DNA from: a virus | Length of the DNA stretch: 26,604 bases | Virus record (IMG/VR): IMGVR_UViG_3300043568_000455 | Location: 1 to 26,604 of that record | Reading direction: 5' to 3' (one strand) | Shown: piece by piece, positions 8,606 through 16,400 of the stretch | Numbering within the stretch: position 1 is the stretch's first letter | Layout: the number at the start of each line of letters is the position of its first letter | The notes under the pieces: model-generated | What the model saw: only the letters and a program-made list of their open reading frames with translations | What the model was told of the DNA's origin: nothing | Databases searched by the model: none | Made by a program: the position numbers and the translations under genes

Positions 8606-8653
8606 TGAGGTGAGGAAACAAGCCCTTTTAATAAAATGAAAGAGGTGAAATAT

Positions 8654-9313
8654 ATGGCATACAGCCGTGGTTCAAGTAGTAACATCATCGTGGGTGCAGC
8701 AGCACTTTTTACACATGATGCAGGTCCAATCGGATACGAAGCACTAACTGGTAAGATCACTGATACCCAAGCAGGTACAGACCTTCCAGCGTTCACAGCA
8801 TCCGCAACATCTTACAAGGATACTTTGTCAGACGACGAAGCGTTCACAAACGTAGGATACACATCAAATGGTTTGGAACTTGCATTCCAGCCAGATTTCG
8901 GTGAAGTAGCAGTAGATCAACTTCTCGACGTTGCTCGTCTTTTCAAGCAAGGTATGACAGTTAATCTAAATACTGCATTTGCAGAAGCAACACTAGAAAA
9001 CCTTCTAGTAGCAATCGCAGGAGATGACACAGATAAGACATCTCCATCAGCAGGCGTTGACGTTTTGAAGATGTCTGCAGGAGATATTGGCGACGTTCCA
9101 CTAGAGCGTGGACTCGTAGCAGTAGGACCAGGATCTGGTTCTTCTCTAGAGCCAAAGGAAAGAATTTATGTTGCATACCGTGCACTCTCAATTGAGAATG
9201 TTACAGTATCAGCAAAGCGTGATGAGGCTTCAATGTTTGAAGTTTCATTCCGTCTTCTTCCAAACGACAATGCATCATACGGAAAGATCGTAGATCGTTC
9301 CCTAGAAGCATAA
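8654..9313 (+). CDS. Major tail (tube) protein
   Basis: 219 residues. The beta-rich sequence has 'SNIIVGAAALFTHDAG', a mid region 'FTNVGYTSNGLELAFQPDFGEVAVDQLLD' and a C-terminal 'ERIYVAYRALSIENVTVSAKRDEASMFEVSFRLLPND', as in siphovirus tube proteins that stack as hexameric rings. The start at 8654 is preferred over ATG 8636 because AGAGGTG (8641-8647) lies 6 bases before it. The gene has its own promoter and a strong terminator, and its arginine codons are almost all CGT (7 of 8 by my count), all signs of very high expression. It precedes the tail assembly chaperones and tape measure gene in the usual order. Confidence 0.87.
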   Translation: MAYSRGSSSNIIVGAAALFTHDAGPIGYEALTGKITDTQAGTDLPAFTASATSYKDTLSDDEAFTNVGYTSNGLELAFQPDFGEVAVDQLLDVARLFKQGMTVNLNTAFAEATLENLLVAIAGDDTDKTSPSAGVDVLKMSAGDIGDVPLERGLVAVGPGSGSSLEPKERIYVAYRALSIENVTVSAKRDEASMFEVSFRLLPNDNASYGKIVDRSLEA

Positions 9314-9332
9314 TACAACTTAATATATGAGA

Positions 9333-9361
9333 GGCTCAACCCTTCGGGGTTGGGCCTTTCT
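9333..9361 (+). terminator. Strong rho-independent terminator with C(UUCG)G loop
   Basis: GGCTCAACCC (9333-9342), loop TTCG, GGGTTGGGCC (9347-9356), 10 pairs with one wobble, then TTTCTGTTT. The C(UUCG)G tetraloop is the especially stable form. It lies 19 bases after the tail tube stop and should confine tube mRNA, keeping it from the chaperone and tape measure genes. Confidence 0.92.
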
Positions 9362-9364
9362 GTT

Positions 9365-9373
9365 TGGTATACT
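9365..9373 (+). promoter_or_regulatory. Extended -10 promoter (TGG-TATACT), leaderless type
   Basis: TGGTATACT directly downstream of the terminator stem. The hexamer ends at 9373 and the A of the ATG is at 9380, exactly the +1 distance, so the mRNA should begin with AUG. Twelve bases (TGGTATACTTAT) are identical to the promoter at 916. Confidence 0.55.
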
Positions 9374-9379
9374 TATATA

Positions 9380-10057
9380 ATGGCAACAAAAATATATCAA
9401 AGCAAAAAGGTATCATTAATAGATGATAGAGTTATTACTATATCACCGTTAAAGATAAAATATCTTAGAGAGTTTCTAGAAATTTTTGAAACTATCAAAG
9501 AAGCAAAAACAGATGATGAGTCAATTGCTGTTTTGGCTTTATGCGCTCTTGTTGCAATGCAGCAATACTGCCCATCTATAAAAACAATAGATGACCTAGA
9601 AGATAGTATTGACTTGCCAACAATATATGAAGTAATTGATATTGCAGCGGGAATTAAAATTAATGAAAAGTCAGAAGATACAGTTAAGAATCAGGCAGTA
9701 GAAAGCGGATCAACCTGGGATACACTAGACTTGGCAAAACTTGAGTCTGAAGTGTTTTTACTGGGCATATGGAAAGACTATGACGAACTAGAATCCTCAC
9801 TGTCAATGCAGGAACTTACAGCAACACTTACAATAAAAAGAGAGTTAGATTATTCTGATAAGAAATTTTCTGCTGCTATGCAAGGAGTAGATTTAGACAA
9901 AAACTCTGGCAAGGGCAATGAGTGGGAAGACATGAAAGCAAGAGTGTTTAGCAAGGGTGCTGCAAAAGATGGAAATGACATACTTGCTTTACAGGGAGCC
10001 AATGCCGAAAGGGCTGGTTTTGGTATAGGCATGGGCCTTGACTACGAAAGTTATTAA
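9380..10057 (+). CDS. Tail assembly chaperone, long form (G-T-like)
   Basis: 225 residues in two parts. Residues 1-95 (VSLIDDRVITISPLKIKYLREF... to 'DLPTIYEVIDIAAGIKI') are paralogous to the whole of the next short gene. Residues about 110-225 are an extension with 'WDTLDLAKLESEVFLLGIWKDYDELESSLSMQELTATL' and a 'DYSDKKFSAAMQGVD' segment, the layout of the T part of the G-T chaperones that load the tube protein on the tape measure. In most siphoviruses the long form arises from a -1 frameshift in the short gene; here it is one continuous frame. There is no ribosome site; ATG 9380 is chosen because the promoter places the transcript 5' end on it (leaderless). An ATG at 9350 lies inside the terminator and is rejected. 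Confidence 0.85.
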   Translation: MATKIYQSKKVSLIDDRVITISPLKIKYLREFLEIFETIKEAKTDDESIAVLALCALVAMQQYCPSIKTIDDLEDSIDLPTIYEVIDIAAGIKINEKSEDTVKNQAVESGSTWDTLDLAKLESEVFLLGIWKDYDELESSLSMQELTATLTIKRELDYSDKKFSAAMQGVDLDKNSGKGNEWEDMKARVFSKGAAKDGNDILALQGANAERAGFGIGMGLDYESY

Positions 10058-10079
10058 TAATAAAAATAAGCCTGCCCTA

Positions 10080-10088
10080 TGGTATAAT
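10080..10088 (+). promoter_or_regulatory. Extended -10 promoter (TGG-TATAAT) before the short chaperone and tape measure unit
   Basis: TGGTATAAT, with no -35 consensus. The predicted transcription start is near 10095, leaving a leader of about 20 bases that carries AAGGAGGA (10103-10110) 4 bases before the ATG at 10115. It would drive the short chaperone, tape measure and the tail-tip genes. Confidence 0.55.
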
Positions 10089-10114
10089 TGATTAAACCTT
10101 ATAAGGAGGAACAA

Positions 10115-10438
10115 ATGGCAACTGCCACTGAAGAAAAAACAGTAACACTAATTGACGGAACAAAAGTCAAAGTGCGTCCACTCAAGATCTCACTACTTCG
10201 TCCATTTATGAAGAAGTTTGAAGATATTGCTAAGGTCGCAGAGGACAACGAAAAGTCTATGGATCTTCTCATGGACTGTGTACAAATAGCAATGCAACAA
10301 TACAAGCCAGAATTGGCAGAAGACAAGGAAGCCCTAGAAGAAAATCTAGACCTTCCAACAGTATACAAGATTGTCGAAGAGGCATCAGGAATTAAACTTT
10401 CTGACGCATCACTTCTCGGCAGCCTTGCAAATAACTAA
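10115..10438 (+). CDS. Tail assembly chaperone, short form (G-like), paralogue of the gene before it
   Basis: 107 residues. It aligns end to end with residues 1-95 of the long chaperone: 'VTLIDGTKVKVRPLKI' against 'VSLIDDRVITISPLKI', 'IAMQQYKPEL' against 'VAMQQYCPSI', and 'NLDLPTVYKIVEEASGIKL' against 'SIDLPTIYEVIDIAAGIKI'. It stops right after the shared domain, as the G product does in lambda. AAGGAGGA with good spacing decides the start and predicts strong translation; the TTG at 10088 is inside the promoter and is rejected. I find no X-XXY-YYZ slippery heptamer in frame near its end, and the downstream frames carry no T-like extension. It directly precedes the tape measure gene. Confidence 0.85.
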   Translation: MATATEEKTVTLIDGTKVKVRPLKISLLRPFMKKFEDIAKVAEDNEKSMDLLMDCVQIAMQQYKPELAEDKEALEENLDLPTVYKIVEEASGIKLSDASLLGSLANN

Positions 10439-13400: not shown

Positions 13401-16400
13401 CAATAGCACAAAAGGCTGCAGATGTACCAAGCCAGGCAAAGATACAGGTTTTAAAAGATGTCTCAGATGCTGCAGCAAAAACTGCATCTGGAAAGTTGGA
13501 TCCTACAGATTTTGGAAAGCAGATTTCTCCATCTTCTGGATATAGTTTTAAAGAAGCATCCTTTATGGGTGGACTGTACAAGAAGCCAGATGGCAGTAGA
13601 GTTTTTGTAAAGCCAATGATGGATGAAAGAGCAGCCCTAGCAGAAATGAGAGCAACACAAATTGCTCGTGATGTTCATGGACTTAATGCACCAGACCAAA
13701 GAATAGCAACAATGCTAGACCCAACGGACCCAAGCAAGCAAAGAAAGTTAATTGTGCTAGAGTCTCCATACAACGCTGCTTTCGATCCTTCTAAAATTAG
13801 TAAAAGTTTTACGCCAGAGGAATACTTCAGGCAGTTAGTAGCAGCAAACCTTAGAGTAGACAAAGATCTTAAGCCAGGAAACCTTGGAGGCAATGTACTT
13901 ACAGATGTTGGTGCAGCAGGTGTATTTGATAGTGCATCTGGAAAGAGAGACTTTGTAAAGAATCTTCCTTCAATGGAAGAAATGGCAAAGGTAAACCTAA
14001 GCGGAGTTCCAGGAAAGCAAGCAGGCAATTCACCACGATGGTTTAGCAATGCAACTGCAGATATTGCACGAAGCATGACTTCTCAACAATATCATAATGC
14101 AATGATTGCTGAAATTGACAGAGTTCTTCCTAGACTAGAAAAGACTCTTGCAACCATGGATCTTACTCCTGAAGAAAAACCATACTATCAAGCAATGGTT
14201 GACAGACTTAGAGAAGGAAAAAAGGTTGATTGGAAAAAACTACACAAACTTCATACATCTATTTTAGTTAAGCCAGACGAAGTTGTTGAAGATCCAAAAA
14301 CTAAAAAAACAAAAAAGCCAAAGACAACCAGCAAGCCTGCTGGAGTTAAGTCATCTACTGGTAGTCCAAAAGATACGAGACTTGCACCAGCCTCTTTAGC
14401 ACCAAGTATTCGTCAAAAGCCTACAGTGTTACGTGGAAAGTCTGACGCACCACAAATTGATATTTCAGAACAAGAACTTGCTCGTACGGCACCAAGGGGA
14501 ATAAAAAGGCTTTCAGATCCAGCAGAAGCAATTGTAAGTGGAGCAAAGTCTACCGTTGCAGAAGCAAAAGCAGTTGGATCACAAATTGGAACAAACATAA
14601 CTCAGTCGGTAGCAGCAGCATCAAGAACAATGCTTTACGGTACTGGACCTATAGATGCAAATGCAAAATCAGTGCGTCGCAGATTACAAAAAGAAGCAAC
14701 TCCTAAATTTCAAAGAGAGAAAGCGCTAAAAGAGTCACAAGCAAAAGCAGCAGCATCAAGAACTGCTCTCTATGGAACTGGGCCAATAGATGCAGACGCT
14801 AAATCTTTACGTAGACAGATGGAAAAAAGAAGTAGGATAGCGGAAAAAATAGCATATCAAGAAAGAATCATTAGTCAAAAAGCCGCAGCAGCAGCAATGG
14901 CACAAGCCCCTATGCTTGGACCACGCAAGCCAACCATGTATGATAAAACAGTAGGAACCGCTGCTGCAAAAGTTAGAACTAGTAAGGTTGCTGAAAACTT
15001 TAGAGGACTTAAGGCTTCAGAAAGTAAGATAGGATACTTGCGTCAAAAGTCAGCAGATAGATCAGCAGCAGGTAAGGGACCAGGAATGGGAATGGCTGGA
15101 GCCATGGGTGTTGCTTCTGGCGTAGCAATGATTGGCTCAATGGCCCCAGGCAAGGTTGGAGAAATTTCACAGAAGATAATGATGCCACTCATGGGTATGG
15201 CAATGATTATGCCAATGCTTCAAAATAAGTTTTCAGCACTTGCAGTAGGTGTTGGTCTTGTTGTAGCAGCATATGCATATCAAAGAATGGTATTTGATAA
15301 AGCACAAGATGCAGCCCTAGAACTTACAGATGCCATGGGATCTGGAACAAGAGCAATAAAAGCACTTTCTGAGTTTTCAACAAAAGTTGGCGCTGGAGAG
15401 ATTATGGACAGAAGAAGAAAAGATTCATTCTCTCCTTTCCAAACTAAAACAGGAAAAACCACATTTGGTGAGGCTTACATGGCGGGAGAAGGCGGAAAAG
15501 CCATGGCAAAAAATGTTACACAAACTATTAAAATGGGCGGTGAAAACGGAAAGTCTATGGCATCAGGTCAGGTTGCTGATCAACTTATGACAGCAGTTGT
15601 ATCGGGAGTTCTAGACCCAGCCCAAGCAAGATCAATTGCAGCAAACCTTGGAGAGCAACTTGGAGATCAGTCTTTTGGAATTGAAATAAATTCAAAACTT
15701 ATTTCAATGCTTGGTCCAAACGGAGAAAATATTCTTAAAGATGGGGTAGAACTTGAAGTAAAACTTCTACAAGACACAAGAACTAGAATGAATCTTGCTT
15801 CTACAGCAGCAAGAGACGCTGGAGGATGGACTGGAAAAGATGTTGGAAAGACTGCTGGATATAGCATTGGAGCGGGACTTGCAGGAGCAGGAGCGGGAGC
15901 AATTGCAGGAGGACTACTAGCAGGAGGTGCTGCTGCAGGAGCAACAGGTCTAGCCACTGCAGCAGGAGCAACCGCTTTGGGAGCAGCAGCAACAGGTGCA
16001 GCAGTAGGTTCTGCCGTTCCAGTTGTAGGAACAATAATTGGCGCAGCACTAGGGATTGGTGTTGGAGCATTCTTAGCAAGAAAAGACAGAAACAAGAGAA
16101 TTGGTGAAGCATCTGGTGCATCTATTGCTATGCAGAAAATCGCTCTGCAGCAACAAAAAGAATTAAATGATTCTGTAGAATTAAGATATCAGAAAGAACT
16201 TGAAATAGCAAAAGCAAAAGGCGACCAGGTTGAAATGCAGAGATTGTCAGATCAGTATGATGAAGATAAGATTGCATTGCTCACTGAAAATGCAGCACTC
16301 GTTGCTGACATTCAAAAAAGTTATGCCGATGCCGAAGGGGCAACACAGAACGCATTAATGACAGGAGCAGATAAAGCAATCACAAAACAATATGCGGGAA

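Follow-up and report, generated by a model that had tools for sequence, protein, structure and literature searches.

Duplicated tail assembly chaperone genes probably take the place of a −1 frameshift in a lineage of viruses related to Streptomyces phages

The window analyzed here is the whole of virus record IMGVR_UViG_3300043568_000455 (26,604 bases, G+C 38.6%), whose genes run head-to-tail from a portal (PF04860) and a protease (PF04586) into the tail genes. Two open reading frames, confirmed at the coordinates originally predicted for them, lie between the genes for the major tail protein and the tape measure protein (Pfam/PHROG), as they do in annotated relatives. The first encodes a predicted long tail assembly chaperone of 225 amino acids, in which a G domain and a T domain are fused in one reading frame, and the second a predicted short chaperone of 107 amino acids that consists of the G domain alone. 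The features of the region are as follows.

8636–9313, plus strand: major tail (tube) protein gene, the upstream neighbor (phrog_2175/phrog_885; sub-threshold match to PF25681, Phage_TTP_17)
9329–9360, plus strand: intrinsic terminator between the major tail and long chaperone genes (14-pair stem with 8 G-C pairs, T-rich tail)
9365–9373, plus strand: extended −10 box TGGTATACT of the long gene, 6 nt before the ATG (sequence match)
9380–10057, plus strand: long tail assembly chaperone gene (predicted), G and T fused in one frame, 225 amino acids
9380–9670, plus strand: G domain of the long protein (HMM match; BLASTP to the short protein)
9686–10048, plus strand: T domain of the long protein (HMM match, 2e-44; tblastn to phages Circinus, Blueeyedbeauty and others)
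10080–10088, plus strand: extended −10 box TGGTATAAT of the short gene (consensus match)
10104–10109, plus strand: Shine-Dalgarno sequence AGGAGG of the short gene (from sequence)
10115–10438, plus strand: short tail assembly chaperone gene (predicted), G domain alone, 107 amino acids
10457–19534, plus strand: tape measure protein gene, 3025 amino acids, the downstream neighbor (PF10145, PhageMin_Tail, 3e-23)

Within the tape measure protein, a stretch spanning residues 1020–1248 (window positions 13514–14200) has the look of a kinase-type fold by eye (GGLYKKPDGSRVFVKP...; NLRVDKDLKPGNLGG), which is unusual for a tape measure. This stretch has no sequence match in PHROG, NCBIfam or the PDB.

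The long and short proteins share a common N-terminal domain, as had been proposed. The two align over ~100 residues with 41% identity and 67% positives (BLASTP, E = 2e-21), both match phrog_10504 (1e-19 and 6e-21), and core positions of the G motif are retained in both copies. The C-terminus of the long protein (residues 130–218) matches phrog_10474, the T-domain HMM matches there too, and the T-like extension is in frame with the long copy. By tblastn, the T domain is homologous to the ORF that Streptomyces phages carry in the −1 frame, and a separate PHROG for the T part is what would be expected if relatives encode T in another frame. Ten contigs of 77–119 kb with the same tandem arrangement each contain exactly two G copies, with no third chaperone copy found elsewhere in these ten, and alignment of the long protein against host genome contigs gave no match.

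The shape of the pair fits the G/GT type, with an N-terminal domain present in both forms and T added in the long one. By tblastn, the genes are homologous to Streptomyces and Rhodococcus phage genes that their depositors labelled as tail assembly chaperones; a sequence search for solved relatives returned nothing usable. A structural model of the short protein (pLDDT 74) matched a ‘tail assembly chaperone’ entry in BFVD with a probability of 1.0 (E = 3.9e-6), and its top match in the PDB was the HK97 chaperone 2ob9, at a level that is not significant (E = 1.4, TM 0.43). The model of the long protein was set aside (pLDDT 48.5). Genomic position, the annotation of relatives and these weak structure matches point to a chaperone function, and by analogy the proteins would bind the tape measure and the tail tube.

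We scanned IMG/VR with the long protein of the window, a Streptomyces G protein, an alignment and two intermediate proteins. This survey, seeded with G and T sequences and thus covering viruses that have a G or a T domain, yielded 313 loci with complete information, of which 194 are tandem and 119 of the frameshift type, and it returned no other arrangement; five more loci, cut off by contig ends, were set aside. A search of relatives for the arrangement had been suggested as a check, and the 194 tandem loci (138 distinct) always carry the fused G-T gene first and the G gene second. An assembly artefact or a sequencing frameshift is ruled out by 138 distinct sequences from many metagenomes. 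In the 119 frameshift loci, which include cultured Streptomyces phages of the Stanwilliamsviridae, the nearest named relatives of the window, there is a single G gene and T is encoded in the −1 frame.

The two types also differ where G ends. In each of the 73 distinct frameshift loci, T lies in the −1 frame, and the sequence found there is CCCAAAN in 54, GGGAAAC in 7 and CCCGGAA in 12. Among five Stanwilliamsviridae Streptomyces phages examined, three have C CCA AAT at an NDPN motif and two have CCCGGAA. Twelve distinct loci of the Samistivirus/Karimacvirus type (L085, L087, L104–L110, L112, L116, L117 and L127) place T in the −1 frame without an XXXYYYZ heptamer; CCCGGAA stands at the end of G in these twelve, at the position of the slip site, and may be an atypical one.

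In the window, the short gene has no X XXY YYZ heptamer in its last 60 nt, and neither has that of an identical relative (L001), in line with the original prediction. In L001, the −1 frame stops inside these last 60 nt, so that it could not lead to a T domain. The window lacks the configuration that marks programmed −1 frameshifting, in which G ends in a slippery heptamer and T follows in the −1 frame. Across the distinct tandem short genes, CCCAAAN occurs in 0 of 138 and GGGAAAC in one (L306), with no T behind it, and where CCCAAAN occurs in a few tandem long genes it lies away from the G/T junction. TTTAAAT/C is present in frame in the last 60 nt of 24 of the 138 short genes (for instance, L062, L185, L192 and L200), probably through coding chance, and we do not regard it as a new slip site, there being no T frame behind it. 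A T domain hidden behind the short gene was likewise ruled out by inspecting the −1 frame of the tandem short genes, which closes a median of 9 codons beyond the stop (29 at most) without any T in it.

The two genes of the pair also have unlike start regions. The long gene of the window has an extended −10 box close to its ATG and no Shine-Dalgarno sequence before it; the short gene has both a −10 box and a complete AGGAGG. Specifically, with kin sequences counted as separate, so that the figures express conservation rather than independent events, TGnTAnnnT stands 4–12 nt before the ATG of the long gene in 73 of 74 distinct relatives (at an observed distance of 5–9 nt; mean of 1.2 in block shuffles) and a Shine-Dalgarno in 0 of 74, while a TGn-TATAAT-type box precedes the short gene in 77 of 77 (18–35 nt before the ATG in 73; shuffles mean 1.5), as do at least four letters of AGGAGG (77 of 77, with all six in 66). 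Counted in the same way, the G gene of frameshift relatives has a −10 box at 22–34 nt in 66 of 70 and a Shine-Dalgarno in 67 of 70. This start resembles that of the short gene, which suggests that the short gene kept the ancestral start and that the long gene has a leaderless one.

Each gene had been predicted to have its own promoter and start. The recurrence of both consensus boxes far above shuffled sequence sustains this prediction in part; a generic −35/−10 scan called neither promoter, as no −35 element is present for it to find. Judged from these signals, the long gene probably has a leaderless start and the short gene a promoter with a leader, the transcription start sites themselves being predicted positions. 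A hairpin comparable to the terminator at 9329–9360 lies upstream of the first chaperone gene in those relatives whose upstream sequences were inspected. A scan found no terminator between the long, short and tape measure genes, so transcripts from the promoter of the long gene may run into the other two.

Phylogenies were built for the domains, as proposed at the outset to date the duplication, and for the neighboring tape measure protein. The tape measure trees place the tandem clade inside the frameshifting viruses, which makes the tandem arrangement the derived one. To root the tape measure tree, we used NiceHouse and Dorin, two Rhodococcus phages annotated with a joined (frameshifted) chaperone; the tandem viruses then fall within successive layers of freshwater and Streptomyces viruses that frameshift. 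In the T-domain tree, all tandem T domains fall beside seven freshwater frameshift viruses with a support of 100/98. In the G trees, the long copies form one clade and the short copies another, and the short clade groups with the same seven freshwater viruses. A topology in which long and short G domains are sisters has a log-likelihood 5.2 higher and so is not worse (AU p = 0.61), and these sequence trees leave it uncertain where exactly the long G domain, which evolves fast, belongs. Most simply, one duplication would have occurred in a frameshifting ancestor; there may also have been a second origin, or one reversal at the frameshift group of L133, since the branch that parts the tandem viruses from this group is poorly supported.

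All parts of the pair are under purifying selection, with dN/dS values of 0.077 for the long G part, 0.061 for the long T part and 0.035 for the short gene. Codon adaptation was calculated with the capsid and tail-tube genes as reference. The short gene scores 0.649, the top value in the window barring these two genes themselves, and the long gene 0.427, which is among the lowest. When each locus is scored against its own tail-tube gene, adaptation is higher in the short gene than in the long G domain at 115 of 128 distinct loci. The median dS of the short gene (0.53) is under half that of the neighboring long gene (1.3), which is consistent with codon constraint or with exchange of the short gene. 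The conserved anatomy of the start sites and the codon bias together lend support to the earlier proposal of unequal expression, with a leaderless start for the long form and a strong ribosome site for the short one, and the codon bias suggests, indirectly, that more of the short form is produced.

The tandem viruses, a clade from freshwater, probably infect actinobacteria, as WhiB, a marker of actinobacterial hosts (PMC10202952), is present in 8 of the 11 large contigs tested. Leaderless mRNA is common in actinobacteria (PMC3898074), and the presence of WhiB in the large contigs makes leaderless translation in the host plausible. In M. tuberculosis, about a quarter of the genes with a mapped start have leaderless mRNAs, and the median protein level of these genes is below that of genes with a Shine-Dalgarno, yet the two classes did not differ in their mRNA:protein ratio (PMC3898074). 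A leaderless start is thus not certain to be a weak one.

We conclude, with a probability of about 0.85, that this tail chaperone pair arose by duplication of G and stands in place of −1 frameshifting, with the ratio of the two forms set by two starts. The replacement of the frameshift by duplication, as originally proposed, is supported by 138 invariant loci, the absence of the slippery site of relatives and the nested trees. The direction of the change, the frameshifting of the closest relatives and a parallel in some T4-like phages go beyond that proposal. The two genes would be the tail assembly chaperones of a long-tailed phage, equivalents of gpG (short) and gpGT (long) of lambda. The ancestor would have had a single gene and obtained both forms through −1 ribosomal frameshifting. 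Later, on the way to the window, the G domain would have been duplicated: the first copy would have joined T in frame and acquired a leaderless start, and the second would have retained its G domain together with the ancestral −10 box and Shine-Dalgarno leader, stopping before any T. No slippery signal would be left in the tandem lineage. The ratio of minor to major form would now come from the two start regions, weak or leaderless for the long gene and a promoter with a strong Shine-Dalgarno for the short one, and transcripts from the first promoter could also read on into the short gene. By analogy, the short protein would be the major G form and the long protein the minor GT form, with G binding the tape measure and T the tail tube subunit. 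It is also reasonably probable that the frameshift was replaced once, in actinobacterial viruses, by this two-start device of leaderless and Shine-Dalgarno starts, and that the minor G domain was thereby freed to evolve apart.

The separate evolution of the two G domains could be given a different weight. Evolution has been faster in the long G domain than in its short counterpart (dN of 0.112 versus 0.022, with longer branches in the trees), a disparity ruled out when both forms share one reading frame, and the paralogs might have diverged in function, the long G being specialised (for example, for the start of assembly or for recruitment of the tail tube) and the arrangement kept mainly for this rather than for the ratio. 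However, the core positions of the G motif retained in both copies speak against such divergence, and the strongly unlike codon bias and start signals indicate a difference in expression too. We consider it unlikely that specialisation is the main reason, and it can hold alongside a ratio set by two starts.

Two further readings keep the frameshift in play or reverse the order of events. One would have an extra chaperone form still made by frameshifting in one of the two genes, for which the TTTAAAT/C sites in 24 short genes and the GGGAAAC of L306 could serve; these sites are missing from the window and most relatives, and the −1 frame of the short genes closes early without T, which makes residual frameshifting very improbable. 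The other takes the tandem pair as ancestral and derives the frameshift gene from it by fusion and loss. The unsure placement of the long G domain leaves some room for this, as do trees that permit either a single origin or a reversal at the L133 group. It is scarcely credible nevertheless, because phages of Streptomyces and Rhodococcus and several freshwater groups, all placed outside the tandem clade, have the frameshift type, and the rooted tape measure tree contradicts it.

Few features of long-tailed phages are conserved as widely as the G/GT frameshift. In this case, a single virus family shows its loss; sister viruses in the family still frameshift, the direction of the change is known, and the start signals that took over are conserved. 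One can therefore ask directly what selection maintains, the frameshift as such or just the ratio. Tandem chaperone loci will be misread by annotation pipelines built around a frameshift.

Of the known systems, gpG and gpGT of lambda are likewise two forms with a common N-terminal G domain, with G as the part that binds the tape measure and T as the part that binds the tail tube subunit; unlike the pair in the window, they come from one gene by a −1 frameshift that sets their ratio at about 30:1 (review PMC5009743). The HK97 chaperone (PDB 2ob9) is similar in size to the short protein and is the top PDB match of its predicted fold, at the non-significant level given above and with no sequence match. 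Another parallel lies in Stanwilliamsviridae phages (Circinus, Blueeyedbeauty, EGole, Moab and Karimac), which share the gene neighborhood, the G domain (phrog_10504) and the T domain, and whose G gene has a promoter and Shine-Dalgarno leader of the same type as the short gene of the window; in contrast to the window, they carry a single G copy, and their T is read in the −1 frame after CCCAAAT (or CCCGGAA). Some T4-like phages are described as having a short gene and a fused longer gene without frameshifting (PMC10274946, citing Vladimirov, Gautam and Davidson 2022, Virology 566:9). This pair resembles the one in the window in its separate short and fused long genes, a likeness of arrangement, and the part of that account available to us describes neither paired leaderless and Shine-Dalgarno starts nor nesting among frameshifting relatives. 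No report of chaperone tandems in actinophages, or of paired leaderless and Shine-Dalgarno starts, was found in open-access text. Given the T4-like precedent, as far as that account goes, the arrangement is not new in kind; what is new here is the clear direction of change within one family and the conserved replacement of start signals.
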